This document shows, piece after piece, positions 11,823 through 48,030 of a stretch of 64,000 bases of DNA. The notes beneath the pieces are model-generated. The model was not told the DNA's origin. It saw only the letters and a program-made list of their open reading frames with translations, and searched no databases. The stretch lies in contig NZ_CAIT01000007.1 of the NCBI RefSeq assembly GCF_000296815.2, positions 558,001-622,000 of the forward strand, written 5' to 3'. The stretch comes from Fibrisoma limi BUZ 3 (GTDB taxonomy: Bacteria > Bacteroidota > Bacteroidia > Cytophagales > Spirosomataceae). Position 1 is the stretch's first letter. Each line of letters starts with the position of its first letter. The translations under genes were made by a program, and so were the position numbers.

Positions 11823-12165
11823 GTGAAGGAAGCGACAGGTAATGTCTTATTGCCTGTCAAATGTAATCAGCATTCAAATACACCAACTGCCTTTCCTGTT
11901 AACTAGCCACTGAAGTATAATTTTTAAACAAATTTTTATTTTAAATTTTATGCAATCGATTGCAAATAAACAATTCATATGATACCTTTAAAACGCTTTA
12001 AATCACCCTCTTTTTTACGTATCAACCCTTACTAATCGGCTGGAGTACAATGCTTGCCTGGTTGATTCTTGCTACGGATTGCATCGATCTTCTCGGGTTT
12101 TCTCTCTACATCCTGTGATTAAAAAGGGAATCTCAACGTGCAACTCTTTATTTCCTATACCGCTT
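11823..12165. promoter_or_regulatory. Regulatory region upstream of the xylanase gene
   Basis: 343 bases without a gene, clearly AT-richer than its surroundings. It contains the perfect palindrome at 11951-11964 and, 20 bases after the TTG in its right half (11960-11962), a TACCTTTA at 11983-11990 close to the Bacteroidota -7 consensus TAnnTTTG. The operator would then overlap the -33 box. The remaining about 175 bases to the xylanase start form a long 5' leader with no recognisable riboswitch. Confidence 0.55.
11951..11964. promoter_or_regulatory. LacI-type operator, xylanase gene
   Basis: Perfect 14-bp palindrome TGCAATCGATTGCA with the central CG typical of LacI-family operators. Identical copies occur at 44063 and 48017, with imperfect ones at 44340 and 43087, all around the locus that contains a lacI-type gene. 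It lies 202 bases before the xylanase start and overlaps the candidate -33 element. Confidence 0.8.
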
Positions 12166-14571
12166 ATGTTAAGAAAAACTACGTTACTAACCCTGGGGCT
12201 GATGACCAGCCTCTCCTTTGCTGCCCTGGCTCAGAATGAGCCGGTTATCGTGCAGGCGGAGTCCGGTGCTATTCCACCGGCTGATCCGCCGATTTTTGAG
12301 AACATCACTGAATCCGGTGTTCAGTTCCTGCGCGTCCAGGCCGACTTTGCCGCTACGCAGAATCCAGGCACAGCCAGCCGGGTAATTTCGTACACCGTTA
12401 CGTTTCCTGCGGCTGGTACGTATGAGCTTTACGCCCGGTTACGAGTAGGCCCCGGTAATTTTAACGACGACAGTTTCTACCAGGCTACTTCGTTTGGTAC
12501 TAAGTCAGCGACAAACAACAGCGACTGGGCGCTGGCCAATGGTCTGGCATCGGGGGGCTTCACGGCGCTAACAGCCTACGTAGAAGGAAATGGTACCGCA
12601 GGCAATAATACCTGGAAGTGGGTGCGACTCTCCGACTTCACGGGTGTTCGCCTTACAGTACCAGCCGGCAACCTGACGCAGACATTCCAGATTGGTAGTC
12701 GCGAAAACGGCCTGGACTTCGATAAGTTGGCCTTTGGCCCGGTGGGCGTTCGCTACACCGTAGCTAATCTCGACAACGGCCAACCGGGTACGACGAATCC
12801 TCCGCCCCCGCCATTCACTCCGACGGGTCCGCCGATTGCAACGGGAAAGCCTAAGACACTGGGGGGCGTCTACAGTACCCCGCAAATCCCCAACTTTACG
12901 GCCTACTGGAACCAGGTCGTTCCTGAAAATGCCGGTAAATGGGGATCGGTCGAAGCGACGCGGGATGTCATGAACTGGACGGAACTCGACGCGGCCTACA
13001 AGCTGGCCAAAGACAACGGTTATCCGTTCCGTTTCCACGTACTGGTCTGGGGCAATCAGCAACCGTCCTGGATTGAGAACCTGCCGCCTGCTGAGCAATT
13101 GGAGGAGATCAAGGAGTGGTTTGCGGCCGTGGCCCAGCGCTATCCCGCCATTGACTTCCTGGAAGTCGTTAACGAACCGACCAATGACCCACCCAGCCAG
13201 CCGGGTAGCGGAGGTGGTAATTACATCAATGCCCTCGGCGGTAACGGCTCAACCGGCTGGGACTGGATTTTGACCTCTTTCCGGCTGGCCCGCGAGTATT
13301 TCCCGAAGACCACCAAGCTGATGCTCAACGACTATAACGTTGAAACCAACAACGCCAACAGCCAACGGTATCTGACTATAGTGAACCTACTGAGAGCCGA
13401 GAACCTGATCGATGCCATCGGTATGCAGGGCCACGCGTTTTCGACCCGTTTCGCGTCGGCCGATGCACTTCGGGCTAACCTCAACGTGTTTGCGGCAACC
13501 GGCCTACCCATCTATATCACCGAGTTTGACATCGATGGTGCAACGGATGAAATCCAACTGCAGGAATACCAGCGCGTTTTTCCAATTTTCTGGGAGCACC
13601 CGGCCGTGAAAGGCGTAACGCTGTGGGGCTATCGGCCTGGCCACTGGCGAACGGCTCAGGGCGCCTTCATTGCCTACGAAAACGGTGCCGAACGTCCTGC
13701 ACTGGTCTGGTTGAGAAATTACGTGCAGAATGCCTCGCTGCTCGCCATTACCAGCTTCAACTGTAAATACACGGGTTCAGTGCTGTCGGGCGTTGACTTT
13801 GTGGTCGGCAACAAAGACGGCTCCTATACGCCTGGTGTCCCCCCGCTGTTTATCAACGGTGTAACGGCAAATGGCCAGTTAGGCACACCCTATACGTACT
13901 CGTTTGATGCAAACCAAAGCACGCTGGCAATTCAGGATCAGGCAACCCGTACAACTTATGCCGTCTGGGATTTCCGCCAGGCCTGCGCAACCGGCCCTAC
14001 GCCTACGCCTTCCGGTACATTTGCCATCACGGCTGTAACGGGTGTGAGTTGCACCACGGTGACGCCTTACCAACGTATTGTCACGTTTACGCCCCAGTAT
14101 TCGGGCCTGAACGGGCAGGCTATTACGTTCTCCGTTGTGAATGAAACGTTGCCGACCACGGAACCAGGACCGTATACGCTGACACTGTACACCGACAACC
14201 CGACCGTAACCCTGCGGGCCGAGCAGGCCGGTACAGCAGGAGCCACTACGTACCCATTCAACTGGGTTGCGGCCTGTCCGAGCGCTAATGCGCGAAGAGG
14301 TGCGGCTGAGCAGGAATTGCCCTTGAGCCTGTCTATTCTGGGTAATCCAACACTTTCTGAAACGGTGCAGGTTGACGTGCGGGGAGCCGCCGGCCAATCG
14401 GTCCGACTTCAGTCACTCAACAGCCAGGGACAGCCGTTGAGCGAAGTTACCATCCATGCAGCCACATCATCCGAACGCGCGACGCTGAAACTCGGCCAGT
14501 CGGCAGGTATGTATTTCCTGAAAGCCACTACGTCGACGCAGCAGCAAGTGATTAAGGTGATGAAGCAGTAG
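12166..14571 (+). CDS. T9SS-secreted GH10 endo-beta-1,4-xylanase with N-terminal CBM
   Basis: 801 residues from ATG 12166, chosen because the Sec signal (residues 1-22, ending ALAQ) starts there. Residues about 25-195 form a CBM6/35-like beta-sandwich (VIVQAESGA, PAAGTYELYARLRVG, NGLDFDKLAFGP), then a proline-rich linker, then a GH10 barrel (about 225-550) with acid/base Glu337 in VVNEPT and nucleophile Glu453 in YITEFDID. A further beta-domain and a T9SS type A sorting domain (last about 75 residues, AGMYFLKATT and QVIKVMKQ) follow. It cuts the xylan backbone at the cell surface or outside. A LacI operator upstream links it to the GH43/xylA locus 30 kb away, and a strong terminator follows. 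Confidence 0.95.
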   Translation: MLRKTTLLTLGLMTSLSFAALAQNEPVIVQAESGAIPPADPPIFENITESGVQFLRVQADFAATQNPGTASRVISYTVTFPAAGTYELYARLRVGPGNFNDDSFYQATSFGTKSATNNSDWALANGLASGGFTALTAYVEGNGTAGNNTWKWVRLSDFTGVRLTVPAGNLTQTFQIGSRENGLDFDKLAFGPVGVRYTVANLDNGQPGTTNPPPPPFTPTGPPIATGKPKTLGGVYSTPQIPNFTAYWNQVVPENAGKWGSVEATRDVMNWTELDAAYKLAKDNGYPFRFHVLVWGNQQPSWIENLPPAEQLEEIKEWFAAVAQRYPAIDFLEVVNEPTNDPPSQPGSGGGNYINALGGNGSTGWDWILTSFRLAREYFPKTTKLMLNDYNVETNNANSQRYLTIVNLLRAENLIDAIGMQGHAFSTRFASADALRANLNVFAATGLPIYITEFDIDGATDEIQLQEYQRVFPIFWEHPAVKGVTLWGYRPGHWRTAQGAFIAYENGAERPALVWLRNYVQNASLLAITSFNCKYTGSVLSGVDFVVGNKDGSYTPGVPPLFINGVTANGQLGTPYTYSFDANQSTLAIQDQATRTTYAVWDFRQACATGPTPTPSGTFAITAVTGVSCTTVTPYQRIVTFTPQYSGLNGQAITFSVVNETLPTTEPGPYTLTLYTDNPTVTLRAEQAGTAGATTYPFNWVAACPSANARRGAAEQELPLSLSILGNPTLSETVQVDVRGAAGQSVRLQSLNSQGQPLSEVTIHAATSSERATLKLGQSAGMYFLKATTSTQQQVIKVMKQ

Positions 14572-17716: not shown

Positions 17717-20700
17717 CTATTGTTCGGATTGAACGGAACGACGAAAATTAGCAGGCGAAGCACCGAATTCTTCCGAAAATACCCGACTGAAATACTTGGG
17801 ATCCTCAAAACCCACGGCGTAGGCAATCTGGGAAATATTGAGCCCCGACGAAACAAGCAGTTCCTTAGCTTTACCCAGCCGGAGCATCCGGATATAGCGC
17901 GAAATCGACATACCCGTCAGGGCCACCAGCTTCGAATGGAGCGTAGTCCGGCTCATGCCCATCTGATGGCAGAGTTCATCAATTGACAGGTCGGTATTGG
18001 TCAGTTGCTCTTCCAGCGCCGACCGCAGCTTTAGTAAAAAGATGTCTTCCAGTGAGGCAGTTTCCTCCGGAAGTGGCAAATCGGACGGTGCAGTTGCCAG
18101 CGCTAGCTGACTATAGTGCTGCTGGAGTATACGCCGGGACTGAAGTAGGTTGCTCAGCACCACCTGTAATTCCTCCCGGTGAAAGGGTTTGGTCAGGTAA
18201 GCGTCGGCTCCGCGTCGAAGTCCGGCAATACGGTCGCTGGCTGCGGCTTTGGCCGTCAACAATACGATGGGGATGTGGCTGGTACGCGGATCGTTTTTCA
18301 GTTCGTCGCATAACTGAAAACCGTCTTTTTGGGGCATCATCACATCACTCAGAATCAAGTCCGGTATTTTGTCGAGCGCCAGCTCAACGCCCGCCTGACC
18401 GTTTTCGGCCCGAATGATCTGATAATTAGCCTGGACGCAGGAAACTATATAACTGGCTACGTCCTCATTGTCTTCTACCAGCAGCAGAACCGGTTTTTCC
18501 TCATTGGTATCAGGCATCGGCTGGACCGCGTCCTGCGTATCCAGATGCGTGCTAGTAGGCCCGGCAACAGGTATCAGCGCCACCGGAGCCTGCTGGGTAT
18601 GGGGCAACCGGATTATAAACTCAGCTCCCTCACCCGGTCGGCTCCGTACCGCCAGTCCACCGTGCATTAGCACCACCAGTTCACGCACCAGCGAGAGTCC
18701 GATACCGGTTCCGCCAGTTTCCGGAATCGGCTGCATACGATCTGCATCAGCAGTCCGCTGATAGAATCGGTCGAAAATATGCGGGAGGTCATGGGCGTCG
18801 ATGCCAGGGCCTGTATTGCGTACACCAACAGAAATCCAGGGTTCCTCGCGGTGTTGCGTCGGGGAAACGGCTTCATAGTAGCTCTCCCCCAACGGGCTCC
18901 ATTTCTCATGGGTGGTCAGTTGAAAGGAAACGTGTCCACCGGCGGGTGTAAATTTGAGGGCGTTGGTTAGTAGGTTGGACAGGATATCCTGAAGTTTGTC
19001 CTTATCGAAATCGGCCTCAAGTGCTTTTTCATCAGACTGAAAATGTAATTGAATCCCCTTCACAGCGGCCATCGTGTGGAACGACTCGGTCAGATAGCGG
19101 GTAAAATCGGCCAGATCGGCCTGGATGGGTTGCAGATACATCTCCCCTGCTTCAAGTTTGGAGAGATCCAGAATCTGGTTGATGAGCCGCAGCAGGTTGC
19201 GCCCGTTGCGTTCGATCAGTTCCGACGACCGTTGAACCCGCCGTGTCAGTTCATCCGGCTCATAGCGTTTCAGCTCCGAGGTTATACCCAGAATAACCGT
19301 CAGCGGGGTACGGAATTCGTGCGAAATATTGGCAAAGAACCGCGATTTCGCTTCGTTGAGCCGATGAAGCAATTGAGCTTGTTCCGCGATGAGTTCTTTG
19401 TCCTGCTCAATTTGGGCAGTGGCCTGACGGATTTCTGTCTGTAGCCGTACTTCTACTTGCTGATGCGACCAGATGCGCCACTGCATCCAGGCCCAGATTC
19501 CGCCCATCAACGCCAGAGCGGCCAGAATCAAAAACCAGATCTGCAGATAAAAAGGCCGCTTGACCTCGACCTGAATCGTTAGCGTATTAGCCGACCATTG
19601 CCCATTGGAAGCCTGCCCCTTAATCAGCAACTGGTGGGTGCCATAGGGCAGATTACTCAGCCGCAACGATGATTCGGTCTGTTGCGTCCATGCTGCGTCC
19701 AGGTCCTTGAACTGATAGGCGTAGACATTTTTCTCGGCGTCGGTATAGTTCAGCAGCGCAAAATCCAGCACCGCGGTCTGGTCGTCGGGACGGATAGTTA
19801 TGGTTTGGGTTTTCGCTACGTCCTCGGTTTTATCAACAAGCTGCCGAAGGTCCTGATCGAACTGCCGAAACGAAACCATGCGCATCAGCAGCGGAGCGGA
19901 TGGTCTTTCGGATTCGAAATTCCGGGGATCGAAGGCCGTAATGCCGTTCAGTCCTCCGAAATAAATCTGGCCGTCCTTGTCCTGAAAATGCGAAACTCGA
20001 TTGAACTCGTTGTGCGTAATGCCATCCTGCACAAAATAGGTTTGGGTCGTTTGCCGGACCGGATCGAACCGCATAATCCCGTAGTCACTGCTCATCCACA
20101 GATTGCCCCGCCGGTCGGGGTAAACCGCGTAGATATTATCGTTCGATAAGCCCTCGGTACGCCGAAACTGCCGGTACTGGTTCTGTTGGCGGTCCCAGCG
20201 AATCAAACCCGCATTAGCAGTAGCCAGCCAGTAAATACCTTTCGAATCCTGGTAAAAATGCTGATAACTATCAGCAGGCAGGTGAAAACCGTTATGGCCA
20301 CCTGTCCAGTAACGGGCCGTAATGCCTTTTTGCGGGTCGAGCGTATATAAACCGGTAGTTGCACAAACCCATAACGTACCTCGACGGTCGGGCGCCATAT
20401 GGAGTATATGCCCCTGAGCGAGTTCGGTAAACTGGTTATACTTGGTAAAGGAGGTACCCCGTCCGGTTCGGGTATTTATCCATGTAAGCCCTTTCTGACT
20501 TCCAGCCAACCATTGATCGGGGCCAAACGGGTGGAAGGTCCAGATCGCAGACCCGTCGGGCAGCTTTATGGTGGAATACGTACCGGCCGACGGGTTGTAG
20601 TGGACTACGTGCTCAGCGTTGCCCGCATAGATCTGTCCCTGTGCATCATGGGCTATCCCGTAGGCAAAGACACTGTTTCCGTACAGCTTTTGGGGTTCTC

Positions 20701-21850
20701 CGCCCCGCTGGGGGATACGGTAGAGCCCAAATTTTTCCAGGTTCGCAAATACCTGATCGCCCAGGGCAGTAATGCCCCGAATCGCAGCTCCCTGTTCTCC
20801 TTTGTTGTTCTCCTGGTACGCTAATCGCTGAAAGTGATTCTGAATCAGTTTGACCTGATAGACGCCAAAACTGGTTCCTAACCATAGCAGACCATTCCGG
20901 TCGCGGTAAAAGCTCCGGTTCTCGATGGTTTCTCCGGCTGTCTGCCCGGCAATAGTCAGGACGGTCCGGTTCGCGGAGTCTCGCAGACTAATGCCATCCC
21001 AGAGTAGACCGGTTCGGTCAACGGGGTAGCAAACCGGGCCCATGTACCGTTTCATCGACTCCAAAAGGGCCGATGGCCACTCCCGCCGACGCCCCAGTTC
21101 ATCGACACTATAAAATGTGTGGTGCTCTGTGTTAGCCGGATTATACACTGTATAGAAAAACTCAATTCCGGCGTTTCGCTGGCCCAAACACCAGCTAACA
21201 ATATCCTTCCCGTGCGAAAATTGGTGCAGAACACGGCCGTCGGCGGTCAGTTCAACAATGCGGTTTTCATCGGCAAGGGCCCATACGGTATTCCGGGCAG
21301 TAGCCCGAAAGGTACCCAGCGTCTTAAATTGCGGTAGAGAAACCGAACGCAAACCCGATCTCGGGTGGTACGTAATCAGCGTAGCAGGCCGGTAGTTTGT
21401 CAGGAAGATGGTACCGTTATCCGAGCTTAACAGGCCCTGAAGATCGTTGGATAGGACTGAAGGAAGCTGTCCCTCGAACTTTTCCTTAAAGGATACTACC
21501 TTACCCGCCAGTGGATTAAAGAGTATAATCTGAGATTGTCCCGTTGAGCCTCCAAGCCATAAGTTGCCATCGGCATCCTGGGCAATGGAATGAATATCAT
21601 CAAAATGAAGCCCGTTGCGTTCCTTGGTGAAGTTGGTGAATGTCTTGCCATCGAAGCGGTTAAGGCCAAACTTGGTACCGAACCACATAAACCCCTGCCG
21701 ATCCTGAAAAATAGCGTTGATTTCACGATGCGACAGACCGTTTTCCGGTCCGTAGTGTTTCACCCAGGCTACGTAGGGCTGCGCTGTTGCCAACGGCAGA
21801 AAACACAGCCAGAGAAGCATATTGATTAGAGGACGTAGCGTTATCACCAT
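17717..21850 (-). CDS. Hybrid two-component sensor/regulator (HTCS)
   Basis: 1377 residues from ATG 21850 (a GTG two codons upstream is possible). Order: signal peptide; Reg_prop two-propeller periplasmic sensor (about 25-680, repeats such as DRQGFMWFGTKFGLNRFDG and DRRGNLWMSSDYGIMRFD); Y_Y_Y domain; membrane helix near 770-795; HisKA with His844 in NISHEFRTPL; HATPase_c with GGTGIGLSLV; receiver with Asp1169 in LILSDVMMPQKDG; AraC-type HTH at the end (AYAVGFEDPKYFSRVFSEEFG). All key residues are present. HTCS proteins sense oligosaccharides and activate nearby polysaccharide loci, and this one lies directly downstream of the glucuronoxylan operon on the same strand, so it is a likely activator of it. 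Confidence 0.95.
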   Translation of the reverse strand: MVITLRPLINMLLWLCFLPLATAQPYVAWVKHYGPENGLSHREINAIFQDRQGFMWFGTKFGLNRFDGKTFTNFTKERNGLHFDDIHSIAQDADGNLWLGGSTGQSQIILFNPLAGKVVSFKEKFEGQLPSVLSNDLQGLLSSDNGTIFLTNYRPATLITYHPRSGLRSVSLPQFKTLGTFRATARNTVWALADENRIVELTADGRVLHQFSHGKDIVSWCLGQRNAGIEFFYTVYNPANTEHHTFYSVDELGRRREWPSALLESMKRYMGPVCYPVDRTGLLWDGISLRDSANRTVLTIAGQTAGETIENRSFYRDRNGLLWLGTSFGVYQVKLIQNHFQRLAYQENNKGEQGAAIRGITALGDQVFANLEKFGLYRIPQRGGEPQKLYGNSVFAYGIAHDAQGQIYAGNAEHVVHYNPSAGTYSTIKLPDGSAIWTFHPFGPDQWLAGSQKGLTWINTRTGRGTSFTKYNQFTELAQGHILHMAPDRRGTLWVCATTGLYTLDPQKGITARYWTGGHNGFHLPADSYQHFYQDSKGIYWLATANAGLIRWDRQQNQYRQFRRTEGLSNDNIYAVYPDRRGNLWMSSDYGIMRFDPVRQTTQTYFVQDGITHNEFNRVSHFQDKDGQIYFGGLNGITAFDPRNFESERPSAPLLMRMVSFRQFDQDLRQLVDKTEDVAKTQTITIRPDDQTAVLDFALLNYTDAEKNVYAYQFKDLDAAWTQQTESSLRLSNLPYGTHQLLIKGQASNGQWSANTLTIQVEVKRPFYLQIWFLILAALALMGGIWAWMQWRIWSHQQVEVRLQTEIRQATAQIEQDKELIAEQAQLLHRLNEAKSRFFANISHEFRTPLTVILGITSELKRYEPDELTRRVQRSSELIERNGRNLLRLINQILDLSKLEAGEMYLQPIQADLADFTRYLTESFHTMAAVKGIQLHFQSDEKALEADFDKDKLQDILSNLLTNALKFTPAGGHVSFQLTTHEKWSPLGESYYEAVSPTQHREEPWISVGVRNTGPGIDAHDLPHIFDRFYQRTADADRMQPIPETGGTGIGLSLVRELVVLMHGGLAVRSRPGEGAEFIIRLPHTQQAPVALIPVAGPTSTHLDTQDAVQPMPDTNEEKPVLLLVEDNEDVASYIVSCVQANYQIIRAENGQAGVELALDKIPDLILSDVMMPQKDGFQLCDELKNDPRTSHIPIVLLTAKAAASDRIAGLRRGADAYLTKPFHREELQVVLSNLLQSRRILQQHYSQLALATAPSDLPLPEETASLEDIFLLKLRSALEEQLTNTDLSIDELCHQMGMSRTTLHSKLVALTGMSISRYIRMLRLGKAKELLVSSGLNISQIAYAVGFEDPKYFSRVFSEEFGASPANFRRSVQSEQ

Positions 21851-21955
21851 CGGCACTTCAAGCCTCCATAAGGCAGACTTGCATTATTCCCCAAACAGGC
21901 TGCATACGGATAGATGGGTTGTCGCCCTCCTGGAAAACCCTATAAATTAAGAATA

Positions 21956-43086: not shown

Positions 43087-43100
43087 TGCAATCGGTTTAC
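43087..43100. promoter_or_regulatory. Imperfect LacI-type operator candidate
   Basis: TGCAATCGGTTTAC: the left half equals the palindrome found at 11951, 44063 and 48017, while the right half differs at four positions. It is 75 bases upstream of the first gene of the long operon, where an operator would be expected. The weak match makes this a candidate only. Confidence 0.4.
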
Positions 43101-43136
43101 GGAATACTGCTAAAGACGTTGTGTTCTCGGAATTGA

Positions 43137-43171
43137 TAAAACACACTCCCTGCCGAATGTCAGGGAGTGTG
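43137..43171 (-). terminator. Terminator after the SusC/SusD remnant
   Basis: On the minus strand CACACTCCCTG and CAGGGAGTGTG form an 11-bp stem with an 8-base loop, followed by TTTTATC. It lies 58 bases after the remnant stop, separating it from the long operon. Confidence 0.75.
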
Positions 43172-43228
43172 CGCACTACAAACCTATGATTAAGCACTTT
43201 CTTGCCCCTGTTTCCGTCAGCGCGCCGG

Positions 43229-43935
43229 TTAATACCCCGGGTTCTGCGGAAACTTCGGTCCAGTGGTCGTCAGGTCAATCTGCCACTGCGGAATGAGCCG
43301 CAGCACGTGGAAATCCCGGAAGCCCGGTGTTGGGTTGTATCGTTCCAGCCGGGTCTTCAGCGTCTGCGTCCGAACCAGTTCCTGCCAGCGAACGTATTCG
43401 CCGTACAATTCACGCGTGCGTTCATCAAGCAGGAAGTCAACCGTGGCCTGCGCCGGCGTGATGGTCAGAGCTGCGGCTGCCGCTGTGTTCTGCGCGGCCG
43501 TGTTGGTCGACCGATACGCGGCCCGCTGCCGGATGGCGTTGATCAGCGCGGCCGCTTCGGCGGGTTTGTTATCTTCGTTCAACTGGTTGTTGGCCGGGGT
43601 AAGCTGTACACGTAACTCCTCGGCAAGATTACCGATTGTCACCTCCTGGCTGGCATAGCTAACCAGCGACAGCACCAGCGTGTTTCCCCGTTCAGCGGCA
43701 ATAGAGAACCGGCCGTCTGCATCGGCTGCCTACCCCGTTGGGTATTCTTAACAAGGATGCTGACGCCTGGCAACGGTTGGTTGGTTTCGTCAAGAACTAC
43801 CCCTTTCACCTGAGCCGTCCGGGCGTGCGCCACCACGCTACAGAAGCAGAAAAACAGTAAGGATACGATTTGCTTCGCAGATCCAGTTATTCGGACCGGC
43901 CAAGCAGTTAGAGTTTGTTGAGGTAAAATCTTCAT
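43229..43935 (-). pseudogene. Collapsed SusC/SusD (TonB-dependent receptor / RagB) remnant
   Basis: From ATG 43935 the product begins as a SusC: signal peptide, then carboxypeptidase-regulatory-like domain (QVKGVVLDETNQPLPGVSIL). At 43730/43731 one base is missing; restoring it gives QRGTAADADGRFSIAAERG, then LVLSLVSYASQEVTIGN and VQLTPANNQLNE, where SusC would go on to its plug. There the sequence jumps into a SusD C-terminus (KPAEAAALINAIRQRAA, DERTRELYGEYVRWQELVRT, end FPQNPGY). About 4 kb of receptor and SusD are therefore gone. A perfect LacI operator is 128 bases upstream, so this was once the xylan-oligosaccharide importer pair of the locus. Confidence 0.85.
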
Positions 43936-44062
43936 AATTAATCGATCAGCATTGGTTAGTTAATTTTTACCCGTAGCATGAATGCATCAGGAGTTCAGGC
44001 AAACTTGTTGTATGAACATCGCCCGTGATTGGAGTCTAAAAATCCTGCAAATTTTCCTGCTT

Positions 44063-44076
44063 TGCAATCGATTGCA
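44063..44076. promoter_or_regulatory. LacI-type operator upstream of SusC/D remnant
   Basis: Perfect TGCAATCGATTGCA, identical to sites at 11951 and 48017, located 128 bases upstream of the remnant's start codon on the minus strand. Confidence 0.8.
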
Positions 44077-44339
44077 TAAAAATTTTAGATTTTCGTTTCA
44101 TTTTTTAATGAAAAAAGCCTTTTCAGGCCAATTTTATAAAGATGAACTAAGTCAAGGAGCCACGCATTTTAGACAGAAGCATTATTCTTCATGGCTGATC
44201 TACTAAGCGTATTGCATCACAATTGATTGATAATAGTCAAATTATAGGAGCCTGGCATAATCATTCTGTGAAAAGAGAGATAGAACTTCATGAATAGCTT
44301 AAATAAATACGTACTTTGGAAGTACATTCAATAAGTACT

Positions 44340-44353
44340 ATCAATCGATTGCA
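44340..44353. promoter_or_regulatory. LacI-type operator at the regulator's own promoter
   Basis: ATCAATCGATTGCA matches the consensus palindrome at 12 of 14 positions, with the inner ten bases intact. It ends 44 bases before the start of the LacI-type gene, as expected for autoregulation. Confidence 0.65.
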
Positions 44354-44397
44354 TTTTTTGTGCTATACCTTGCTCCAAAACGACGGCTCACAACTCC

Positions 44398-45426
44398 ATG
44401 GAAAAAGAGATAACCATATATGATATTGCGAAACGGCTCAAGTTGTCGCCTGCTACGGTCAGCCGGGCGTTGAATGACCACCCGGCTATCAATAGCGATA
44501 CCAAAACGTTGATTACCGCCATGGCCCGACAGATGGGCTATCGCACTAATACCTTTGCCAGCAACCTGCGTCGGCAACGAACCAATACAATTGGCGTCAT
44601 TGTACCCCGCCTGAATAGTAACTTCATGTCTACCGTCCTGGCCGGCATGGAGAAAGTGGCAAATGAGGCTTCCTATAACCTGATCATCAGCCAATCGCTG
44701 GAGTCGGTTAAGAAGGAAATTGCCAACGCGAAAACCATGTTCAACAGTCGCGTTGATGGGCTGCTGGTATCTGTGGCTTACGACACGGACAAGATTGATC
44801 ACTTTGAGGCTTTTATCAAGAAAGGAATACCGCTGCTGTTTTTCGACCGAGTCATCGAACACAAGCAATGCACCAGCATTGTCATCGATAATGTTAAAGC
44901 AGGCTACGATGCGGTAACCCATCTGATTGAACAGGGCTGCCGACGGATTATGCATGTGACAGGTAACCTGAAGCGGAACGTATATGCCGACCGGCTGGCT
45001 GGTTACCAGCAGGCGTTGCGGCAGCATGGACTGCCGTACGACGAATCGCTCGTGATGGTTACCGATCTCAGCCAGGAAGCCGGCACCGAAGCAGCAAGGC
45101 GTATTCAAAACATGCCCGAGCGACCGGACGGCGTTTTTGTGACCAACGATTTCTGCGCGGTCTGCTGCCTGATCACGTTAAAGAAGCTGGGTTTTTCGGT
45201 TCCCGACGATATTGCCGTAGTAGGATTCAACGATGACCCCGTGTCGCAGGTAGTAGAGCCGGATCTGACCACCATCCATTACCCCGGCGCAAAAATGGGC
45301 GAAGTAGCGGCCCAGAGTTTAATTAACCACCTGAACGGGCTGCTTGACATCCAGACAACCAACAAAATTATCCTCCATTCTGAGCTGGTGGTTCGCCACT
45401 CGTCGTTAAAAAGCAGTAGCTACTAA
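44398..45426 (+). CDS. LacI-family transcriptional regulator of the xylan locus
   Basis: 342 residues from ATG 44398. The N-terminal HTH is ITIYDIAKRLKLSPATVSRALN (residues 5-26, in parts), followed by the hinge helix region ASNLRRQRTNTIGVIVP and a periplasmic-binding-like effector domain (FMSTVLAGMEKVANEASYN, RLAGYQQAL, DIAVVGFNDDP). As in other LacI proteins it should release DNA on binding a sugar, here perhaps xylose, a xylo-oligosaccharide or a uronate intermediate. Four to five copies of a LacI-type palindrome flank the neighbouring xylan genes, including one at its own promoter. Confidence 0.95.
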   Translation: MEKEITIYDIAKRLKLSPATVSRALNDHPAINSDTKTLITAMARQMGYRTNTFASNLRRQRTNTIGVIVPRLNSNFMSTVLAGMEKVANEASYNLIISQSLESVKKEIANAKTMFNSRVDGLLVSVAYDTDKIDHFEAFIKKGIPLLFFDRVIEHKQCTSIVIDNVKAGYDAVTHLIEQGCRRIMHVTGNLKRNVYADRLAGYQQALRQHGLPYDESLVMVTDLSQEAGTEAARRIQNMPERPDGVFVTNDFCAVCCLITLKKLGFSVPDDIAVVGFNDDPVSQVVEPDLTTIHYPGAKMGEVAAQSLINHLNGLLDIQTTNKIILHSELVVRHSSLKSSSY

Positions 45427-45428
45427 AC

Positions 45429-45486
45429 CACCGATGCCCGCGCCAGCCTTTGTGTCTCAAGGTCAGCCCGGGCATCGGTGTTTTAT
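45429..45486 (+). terminator. Terminator after the LacI-type gene
   Basis: CACCGATGCCCG (45429-45440) pairs with CGGGCATCGGTG (45469-45480) across a 28-base loop and is followed by TTTTATT. It starts three bases after the regulator's stop and sits between convergent genes, so it may also work for xylA on the other strand. Confidence 0.75.
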
Positions 45487-45509
45487 TCACTTATTCGTAA
45501 TCTGCTTCC

Positions 45510-46856
45510 TCAGATATACTGGTTGATGATGGTCTCAAACAGCTCCTGCTTGCCGCTGATCTGTTTGGGCTCGCCATTGTCCATAGCATACGCACGCAGG
45601 TCAGCCAGCGTCAGCTCACCCCGCTCAAAACGGGCCCCCTCACCACTGTCATAACTCGCATACCGATCCGACCGCAGCTTCCGGTACGGCGACTTCTCCA
45701 GAATGGCCTCCGCCACGATCGCGGCCCTGGCAAAAGCGTCCATCCCACCAATGTGGGCAATGAACAAGTCCTCCAGGTCAGTCGAGTTCCTCCGCGTCTT
45801 GGCATCAAAGTTCACCCCGCCCGACTTCAGACCGCCCGCTTCCAGAATCACCAGCATCGCTTCGGTCAGCTCATAAAGGTCCATCGGGAACTGATCCGTG
45901 TCCCAGCCGTTCTGGTAGTCACCCCGGTTGGCATCAATCGAGCCCAGCATGTTAGCATCGGCCGCTACCTGCAGCTCATGGGCAAAGGTGTGGTTGGCCA
46001 GCGTGGCGTGGTTGGTCTCGATGTTCAGCTCAAAGTCATCCTGCAACCCATGCCGGTTGAGAAAGCCCACCACCGTGGCCGCATCAAAGTCGTACTGGTG
46101 CTTGGAGGGCTCCATGGGCTTGGGCTCGATGTAGAAGGCCCCCTGAAAGCCCTGCTGGCGGGCGTAGTCCCGGGCCATCTGCAAAAAGCGCCCCAGGTGC
46201 TCGGTCTCCCGCTTCATGTTGGTGTTCAACAGCGACATGTAGCCTTCCCGCCCTCCCCAGAAGGTGTAGCCTGAGCCGCCCAGCTCGATGGTGGCATCGA
46301 TGGCGTTCTTGACCTGCCAGCCCCCGTGGGCCAGCACGTGGAAGTCGGGGTTGGTCGAGGCTCCGTTCATGTAGCGCTCATGCGAAAAGAGGTTGGCCGT
46401 GCCCCACAGCAGCTTGACGCCACTGGCGGCCTGCTTCTGCTTGGCGTAGTCGACGATGGCGCGGAAGTTGCGCTCGAAGTCGGCATTGGAATGGCCTTCA
46501 GGGGCGACATCGACATCATGGAAGCAGTAGAACTCGATGCCCATCTTGGTGATGAACTCGAAGGCAGCATCCATCTTGTGGTGGGCGGCCGCCAGGGGAT
46601 CGGAGGTGGCCAGCTCATCCCAGGGGGAGTGCTTGGTGCCGGGTCCGAAGGGGTCGTTGCCGGTGCCGCAGAAGGAGTGCCAGTAGGCGACGGCGAATCG
46701 GAAGAGGTCCTTCATGGGCCTGCCCAGGATGGTTCGGTCGGCCTGGTAGAACTTAAAGGCGAGAGGGTTGTCGGAGTCACGTCCCTCGAAGGCGATGGGC
46801 TTGTCGACAAAGGGGAAGTAGGTCTTCTGGCCCAGGGTAAGCTTGATGTCTGACAT
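45510..46856 (-). CDS. xylA: Xylose isomerase
   Basis: 448 residues, class II length. It converts D-xylose to D-xylulose in the cytoplasm using divalent metal. Signatures: [10 protein letters not shown] with the catalytic His and Asp, [25 protein letters not shown] with metal Glu, [11 protein letters not shown], and [17 protein letters not shown] with the metal Asp cluster. The 5' half of the gene uses strongly C/G-ending codons (TCC, CTG, GAG, AAG), unlike most neighbours. It is downstream of GH43 (38-base gap) and probably cotranscribed from the operator-bearing promoter. No xylulokinase gene is in the window. Confidence 0.97.
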
Positions 46857-46894
46857 GGTATTCAGGTTGATTAATTAATTCGTTGGGTTACGCA

Positions 46895-47959
46895 CTATTT
46901 GGCTGGATAGTTAATAGTTACAAAGGAGCCATCCGGTTTCCGCGTTAGTTCGGTCACTTTGACGTTACGCAGGTGCGTCTTCCCCGACAGTTCAGTATCA
47001 TGATAGAACAGATACCACTTTCCATTGAACTCGATGATGGAATGGTGCGTCGTCCAGCCCTGCACCGGCGTCAGAATAACGCCCTGGTACGTAAACGGTC
47101 CGTAAGGCGACGTACCGGTTGCATACGCCAAAAAGTGCGTATCACCGGTGGAGTATGAGAAATAGTATTTGTCTTTGTATTTATGCATCCAGCCACCTTC
47201 AAAGAAACGGCGTTTATTGTCGCCAGCCAGCAGTGGCTTACCTGCTTTATCAAGAATCTTGATCTCTTTTACGGGCTCATCGAATTGCAGCATGTTTTTG
47301 CTCAGACGGGCTACTTTAGGTCCCAGGGCGGGTTCATTGGTGGCTGGTTCTTTCCCATTCGGATTATACTGACCACTTCTCCAGCGCTGGAGCTGTCCAC
47401 CCCAGATTCCCCCAATATACATGTACGTTTGTCCGTCAGTATCGGTAAATACAGCCGGATCAATGCTTAGACTTCCTTTCATCGGGGCTGATTCGGCCTT
47501 GAACGGCCCGGTTGGCGATTTGCTGGTTGCCACGCCGATGCGAAATACGCCCTGTTTGTCCTTGACGGGGAAATATAGATAATACGTACCGTTCTTATAA
47601 GCGGCATCAGGGGCCCATAACTGCTTGCCAGCCCAGGGTATATTCTTAATATCCAGGGCAACGCCATGGTCCGTGACTTTTCCATTTATGCGGTCCATCG
47701 ACAACACGTGGTAATCGCGCATGGCAAAGTGACTGCCCAGATCATCTTCCGGTACCCCAGCTTCATAGTCGTGAGATGGGTAGATGTAGATCCTACCGTT
47801 GAAAACATGCGCCGAGGGGTCGGCCGTGTAGATGTGACTGACTAGTGGCTTTGATAAGAGTTTAGGAGCAGTTTCGGCGCGTTGCTGCCCAAAGCCGGAA
47901 ACAGTTCCGAGGAGGGTTAAACCCAGCGCCGGAACGATGTAATTGATCTTTCCAATCAT
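46895..47959 (-). CDS. GH43 beta-xylosidase/alpha-L-arabinofuranosidase
   Basis: 354 residues from ATG 47959 with a Sec signal (ending SGFGQQ). Five-bladed GH43 propeller with base Asp in YTADPSAHVFNGR, pKa-setting Asp in LSIDPAVFTDTD and acid Glu in RRFFEGGWMHK; LWAPDAAYKNGTYYLYF is the typical blade-2 stretch. It should free xylose or arabinose from xylo-oligosaccharides in the periplasm. Which of the two activities dominates cannot be told. A perfect LacI operator lies 58 bases upstream, with a TAATATTG -7-like element (47990-47997) 21 bases beyond the operator's TTG. xylA follows. Confidence 0.93.
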   Translation of the reverse strand: MIGKINYIVPALGLTLLGTVSGFGQQRAETAPKLLSKPLVSHIYTADPSAHVFNGRIYIYPSHDYEAGVPEDDLGSHFAMRDYHVLSMDRINGKVTDHGVALDIKNIPWAGKQLWAPDAAYKNGTYYLYFPVKDKQGVFRIGVATSKSPTGPFKAESAPMKGSLSIDPAVFTDTDGQTYMYIGGIWGGQLQRWRSGQYNPNGKEPATNEPALGPKVARLSKNMLQFDEPVKEIKILDKAGKPLLAGDNKRRFFEGGWMHKYKDKYYFSYSTGDTHFLAYATGTSPYGPFTYQGVILTPVQGWTTHHSIIEFNGKWYLFYHDTELSGKTHLRNVKVTELTRKPDGSFVTINYPAK

Positions 47960-48016
47960 ACGAGGATACGTCCACAAATTGTACAAAGGCAATATTAGCT
48001 AAATAAAAGTATATGT

Positions 48017-48030
48017 TGCAATCGATTGCA
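48017..48030. promoter_or_regulatory. LacI-type operator upstream of GH43-xylA
   Basis: Perfect TGCAATCGATTGCA, 58 bases upstream of the GH43 start. Read on the minus strand its right half supplies TTG, 21 bases before TAATATTG, the same operator/-33 overlap as at the xylanase promoter. Confidence 0.8.

Follow-up and report, generated by a model that had tools for sequence, protein, structure and literature searches.

The 64-kb stretch of Fibrisoma limi BUZ 3 analysed here (contig NZ_CAIT01000007.1, positions 558,001 to 622,000; hereafter the window, numbered from its first base) carries xylan and uronate genes, a gene for a LacI-family regulator and several copies of a 14-bp palindrome, TGCAATCGATTGCA. 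The regulator gene, lacI (44398–45426, forward strand), encodes 342 amino acids with the recognition helix SPATVSRALN, as located by alignment, and matches to PF00356 (40.2 bits, cut-off 27) and PF13377 (112 bits, cut-off 26.5) place its product in the LacI family, whose members combine an N-terminal LacI helix-turn-helix with a ligand domain resembling periplasmic binding proteins. Among solved chains its best profile matches are CcpA, a global carbon regulator, and PurR, a purine regulator, which share this domain plan but have other targets. Scanning the window returned exact copies of the palindrome at 11951–11964, 44063–44076 and 48017–48030 and a copy with two mismatches (12 of 14 positions) at 44340–44353, just as the original prediction had listed them. 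The first stands before a GH10 xylanase gene (12166–14571, forward strand, ATG at 12166; PF00331, E 9.9e-59) whose product carries a type IX secretion system sorting domain (TIGR04183, 26.3 bits, cut-off 23) and is presumably secreted. The copy at 48017 lies 57 bp before the ATG of a GH43 glycoside hydrolase gene (46895–47959, reverse strand; PF04616, E 7.1e-28), the first gene of a presumed unit with xylA, encoding xylose isomerase (45510–46856, reverse strand; TIGR02630, 658 bits, cut-off 533). The remaining exact copy, at 44063, sits between lacI and a remnant of susC, 127 bp before the remnant ATG, and the imperfect copy at 44340, which reads ATCAATCGATTGCA, is a predicted autoregulatory operator 44 bp before the ATG of lacI. 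The earlier statement that each site precedes a xylan-related gene or the regulator itself thus describes the window correctly.

It is the exactness of these copies that sets them apart from background. Markov models of order 0 to 4, built on 156 kb of DNA from the same genome, predict 0.024–0.042 exact copies of TGCAATCGATTGCA in the whole 7.63-Mb genome, whereas four are present (three in the window and one elsewhere, C11:731738), an excess of approximately 100-fold; the reversed pattern used as control has no exact copy in this genome. The argument that a 14-bp sequence should not recur three times by chance therefore gains weight at the genome scale, and rather than many copies unrelated to sugar genes we found four, each either ahead of xylan genes or in the interval that separates the susC remnant from lacI, an outcome in favour of the regulon. 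Allowing up to three mismatches within the window gave six places, with an average of 3.2 in shuffled sequences and six reached by 12 of 100 shuffles. Across the genome, up to two mismatches gave 36 places versus 24 for the reversed control, and the degenerate consensus TGCAAYCGRTTGCA, at up to one mismatch, occurred in seven places versus ten for the reversed control. Inspection of all 30 two-mismatch places outside the window put 24 of them inside open reading frames of more than 150 codons on either strand, which are not proven genes, and six outside such frames. Matches with two or three mismatches carry no meaning alone, and we did not accept them as further regulon members. Three places with one mismatch to TGCAAYCGRTTGCA were likewise not accepted: C1:72952, between genes that, judged from their translations, are conjugation-like; C9:462150, 101 bp before a gene resembling those of TonB receptors; and C9:1071696, inside an HlyD-like gene. 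The sites at 44340 and 43087 (described below) are believed because of their position and conservation, not their score.

The palindrome is conserved together with this particular LacI protein. With a threshold of at least 52% identity, orthologues were detected in 85 of the 222 genomes searched within the family, which by inference includes Spirosoma, Dyadobacter and Fibrivirga, and the next matches among those listed reach at most 42% identity. We compared the 600 bp before lacI with TGCAAYCGRTTGCA in 82 family loci, a set that includes the window itself and a sister genome and omits six of the orthologue matches; 46 hold a perfect site, 32 a site with one mismatch, two a site with two, and two hold none, which gives an autoregulatory site at no more than one mismatch in 78 of the 82. 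The corresponding figures for 80 named Bacteroidota loci (Spirosoma, Dyadobacter, Pontibacter, Chitinophagaceae, Mucilaginibacter, Echinicola and others, some genomes overlapping the family set) were 38, 31, four and seven, or 69 of 80 at no more than one mismatch. After removal of duplicates and short regions, such a site was present in 129 of 142 upstream regions, while 60 dinucleotide shuffles averaged 0.017, and the 8-, 10- and 12-mers most widely shared by the lacI upstream regions are pieces of the motif. Moreover, an exact match to the degenerate motif occurs in 59 of the 85 family genomes with an orthologue and in only nine of the 137 without (59/26/9/128; Fisher p 1.3e-23, a descriptive value, as are all co-occurrence p values here, because related genomes are not independent). 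The reversed-pattern control is found in four of 85 and five of 137, respectively. When an even sample of 395 genomes from the phylum was analysed, the motif was present outside the family in 11 of 13 genomes with the orthologue versus 30 of 378 without it (p 3e-10).

The form of the sites is also that of a LacI-family operator. As described in passages of PMC4052901, such operators are even palindromes with a central CG pair, usually 16–22 nt long and located mostly 140–30 bp before the start codon. Among 168 sites, chosen at no more than one mismatch, the 14-bp core has a CG centre (96% C, 98% G), and 107 of the 168 start 21–160 bp before lacI; the palindrome fits these properties, with a core shorter than the usual length and some sites, such as those at 11951 and 44063, further from their genes. 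We looked for a preferred distance to the promoter element TAnnTTTG and found none that was clear among 87 proximal sites (at most three at one distance), and because of this the position of the sites does not discriminate between repression and activation. The spacings of 58 paired sites gave a Rayleigh p of ~0.007 at 10.5 bp, from which we make no claim of DNA looping, since related genomes are not independent.

Comparison with the sister genome (G115) identified counterparts for all four exact sites, three of them exact, including those before the GH10 gene (L048:9213) and the GH43 gene (L046:16689), and the autoregulatory site is identical there. The fourth exact copy, at C11:731738, precedes a gene whose product has a carbohydrate acetylesterase domain, with a second GH10 xylanase gene next in line; the sister genome retains this copy, even though megablast aligned nothing across approximately 1 kb around it. 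The regulon, as predicted from its sites, accordingly has at least one further unit outside the window. The site between susC and lacI takes the form TGCAATCGGTTGCA in the sister, where it precedes an intact susC; there, SusC (1,039 amino acids) and SusD (580 amino acids) are encoded between lacI and a gene for an RraA-like protein (locus L047). In the window, these two genes have been reduced to a deletion pseudogene (43232–43935, reverse strand) in which SusC codons 1–121 are fused to SusD codons 466–580, with a frame change near codon 68 of the susC remnant, the fusion junction near 43573 and ~4.2 kb missing between the two parts relative to the sister. The operator at 44063 is itself still intact and now fronts a pseudogene. 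The genome encodes 20 other relatives of this SusC at E ≤1e-100, the best being 51% identical (C11:627717), and no replacement with an operator was apparent: none of the six of these 20 loci that were examined, the best one included, has a site within one mismatch, and the genome-wide search for exact sites returned only the four copies reported.

On the same strand as the pseudogene, 14 genes form a presumed operon (22068–43012, reverse strand). From the promoter end, this uronate run encodes an RraA-like protein, an MR/MLE dehydratase, GH115, a glucuronoyl-esterase-like protein, UxaC, an MFS transporter and a sodium symporter, and continues with UxuA, GH67, three GFO/IDH/MocA oxidoreductases, ThuA and an SDR protein. 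A putative, degenerate operator, TGCAATCGGTTTAC, is found at 43087–43100, 74 bp before the RraA-like gene, with the same letters in the sister genome. It departs from the strict palindrome at four positions and from TGCAAYCGRTTGCA at three (11 of 14). The original prediction had called this an imperfect site retaining the left half only; it is indeed imperfect, but more complete than a half-site, the differences from TGCAAYCGRTTGCA being confined to the three outer bases of one arm. Perfect sites start 82 and 65 bp before the orthologous RraA-like gene in two relatives (G048 and G138; loci L076 and L085), compared with 88 bp here, and at five other loci (L053–L056 and L062) lacI and the RraA-like gene are direct divergent neighbours, separated by a stretch that holds one to three sites. 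Of 17 upstream regions of RraA genes (400 bp each), ten carry a site with at most one mismatch, three a site with two, the two from this genus a site with three, and two none. Because relatives carry full sites near the equivalent position, the uronate genes probably belong to the circuit, their operator having decayed here, which raises what had been offered as a mere possibility.

On the strength of these comparisons, we are highly confident that the LacI protein and the palindrome form one conserved circuit for glucuronoxylan genes, with the palindrome as the operator of the protein encoded at 44398–45426. The proposal that the xylanase, the lost SusCD pair, GH43-xylA and lacI are tied into one circuit is supported by the positions and conservation of the sites and by the co-occurrence of protein and motif. 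The LacI protein, probably as a dimer, would occupy TGCAAYCGRTTGCA sites in front of lacI and of the glucuronoxylan genes, that is, the two GH10 xylanases (one behind the acetylesterase-like gene), GH43-xylA, the former susCD pair and the 14-gene uronate run. That the protein acts as a repressor is an assumption based on its family. Entry of a glucuronoxylan breakdown product into the cell would supply a small ligand that frees the protein, and the units would then be transcribed together, so that hydrolysis outside the cell, (formerly) uptake, removal of side chains and the two catabolic branches would be switched on jointly.

Several observations weigh against this reading, and there are other explanations of the sites. 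No site within one mismatch precedes lacI in four of the 82 family loci and 11 of the 80 named loci, 26 of the 85 genomes bearing the orthologue have no exact degenerate site, and both species of this genus have a weak site at the 43087 position. We surveyed 31 exact-site loci, made up of those among the sites listed that lie away from lacI or have an unknown neighbour plus those of G201 and G217, with later genomes such as G207 outside this set. Fifteen of the 22 in orthologue-bearing relatives are near a specific xylan or uronate enzyme gene (GH43, GH10, XylA, UxaC, UxuA, RraA-MR/MLE or esterase), but in five the vicinity offers nothing beyond homologues of SusC/SusD, a frequent type of gene in these genomes, and two (L075 and L089) have no reference gene nearby. 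Among the nine in genomes that lack the orthologue, six show either no reference gene at all or nothing more than an SDR match at 23%, and one (L100) has weak RraA and MR/MLE homologues ~4–5 kb from the site. The looser matches, being near background, would be compatible with the palindrome as a chance occurrence or a genomic repeat, a view to which we give practically no credence: the excess of exact copies, their location before the genes of one pathway and their counterparts across genera have already refuted such an origin for the exact sites. Exact palindromes also stand before other LacI genes, between susC and a LacI gene 31 or 38% identical to ours in two genomes without the orthologue (G100 and G217) and, in G141, before a second LacI gene that is close to xylA and shows 32% identity. 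These LacI genes (loci L087, L080 and L090; 31–38% identical) have the helices VS, IS and TS, and that of L087 is the one near xylA. Related paralogues elsewhere may thus read the same palindrome, and the motif does not belong to this protein alone. For a paralogue to be its reader here, with the adjoining lacI a coincidence, strikes us as very improbable, since the genome's three other LacI-domain proteins carry KS, IS and TA in the recognition helix in place of PA, none of their genes has a site within one mismatch in its 12-kb locus, and presence of the motif tracks this orthologue across genomes. These differences in the helix, the conserved upstream sites and the co-occurrence together sustain the proposed link between the palindrome and this LacI protein. 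A further candidate is the hybrid two-component regulator (17717–21856, reverse strand; sensor propeller, kinase, receiver and AraC-type helix-turn-helix domains), whose gene comes after the uronate run in the same orientation and which may control the same genes, perhaps in parallel; either LacI regulators or hybrid two-component systems have been reported for β-1,4-xylan systems in passages of PMC12125979. That it should be the main xylan regulator, with the palindromes playing a minor or different part, we regard as unlikely, as this leaves the conserved palindrome and its co-occurrence with the LacI protein unexplained, and both regulators could operate jointly.

If the sites are operators of this LacI protein, the inducer could still be xylose or a xylo-oligosaccharide, as for XylR of Caulobacter and Xanthomonas, described in passages of PMC10380989 as a LacI-type repressor released by xylose. 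In favour of this, xylA belongs to the GH43 unit, which has an exact site in front of it, another genome (G110, locus L082) carries such a site before xylA, and xylA is close to lacI in 15 of the 80 named loci (family members included). The company that lacI keeps in the family points elsewhere. Of the 82 family loci, 66 have a gene of the glucuronate branch (UxuA, UxaC, GH67, GH115 or glucuronoyl esterase) in the neighbourhood of lacI and seven have xylA there, the DNA around these loci varying in length so that absences are soft. Within 1.5 kb, lacI has as its divergent neighbour uxuA in 37 of them, susC in 11 and RraA in seven; the 37 loci have sites before lacI, which is a matter of position and not proof that uxuA is controlled. 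In genus g8, by inference Dyadobacter, 27 of the 29 loci have uxuA-SDR-ThuA-MocA1 as the only reference genes near lacI, and GH67 joins them in the remaining two. The usual partner of lacI in the family is therefore the glucuronate branch, more often than xylA, and because of this the inducer may be glucuronate-derived; such a ligand best explains the uxuA-only arrangements, provided that the ligand was kept through evolution. A compound of the glucuronate branch or an aldouronic acid would be the likeliest inducer, with xylose less likely, and induction by the backbone sugar seems to us a real but lesser prospect. We put forward only tentatively, and expecting that it could well be wrong, the fuller reading that the regulator senses the glucuronate side chain and not the xylose backbone, that an ancestral uxuA regulator took xylanases, esterases, SusCD pairs and xylose isomerase under its control lineage by lineage, and that the circuit is losing parts here, with susCD deleted and the uronate operator decayed. 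Were this reading true, a sugar acid decorating the polymer would report the presence of the whole polymer.

Judged by analogy, the regulon functionally resembles known systems and is a clear example of a familiar type of control. As far as the passages of PMC10380989 go, a LacI-type XylR acts through a xyl-box on xylan and xylose genes in Xanthomonas and on xylose genes in Caulobacter, and the likeness lies in a LacI-type regulator of xylan or xylose genes with an operator box; compared by description, the present target set adds a (broken) SusCD pair and the large glucuronate run, and uxuA, not xylA, is the partner in many relatives. Within the same phylum, UxuR, UxaR and KdgR of the LacI family control sugar-acid pathways in Bacteroides, where the predicted XylR belongs to the NrtR family (passages of PMC3878776 and PMC4052901). 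These are likewise LacI regulators of glucuronate and galacturonate catabolism, and the present circuit differs, again by description, in also holding xylanases, GH43, an esterase and susCD. A figure legend for xylan polysaccharide utilization loci of Gramella flava places lacI with xylanase, α-glucuronidase, xylA and susCD (PMC5306329), a likeness by gene content only, the passages concerned mentioning neither operator nor regulon. A text search for four 14-letter forms of the motif, which covered few subscription journals, found no paper, and within the same coverage the titles and abstract openings of literature on LacI with xylan, hexuronate or glucuronoxylan in Bacteroidetes gave no description of this regulon. 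For the use of glucuronoxylan by environmental Bacteroidota, the analysis yields a regulator and a tight, testable operator, TGCAAYCGRTTGCA. Searching for this operator can reveal unlinked xylan genes in other genomes, and in the present case it led to the esterase-like gene and the second GH10 gene on another contig. The system is also well suited to the question of whether a bacterium senses a polymer through its side chain.

Other arrangements of LacI genes were noted along the way. Tandem pairs of LacI genes of this kind, ~1 kb apart, occur mostly in Chitinophagaceae (L191, L197, L198, L200, L203, L204, L215, L222, L230 and others). At locus L103 (G000:C10:123001-135000), a paralogous LacI gene divergent to susC encodes a cysteine-pair stretch before the LacI helix-turn-helix, which we take to be zinc-ribbon-like, and has a CGGGAACGTTCCCG palindrome upstream. 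At locus L104 (G000:C11:346001-358000), closely spaced TGCAAACGTT and AAGCGTTTGCA precede another LacI gene and are a candidate for a distinct operator.

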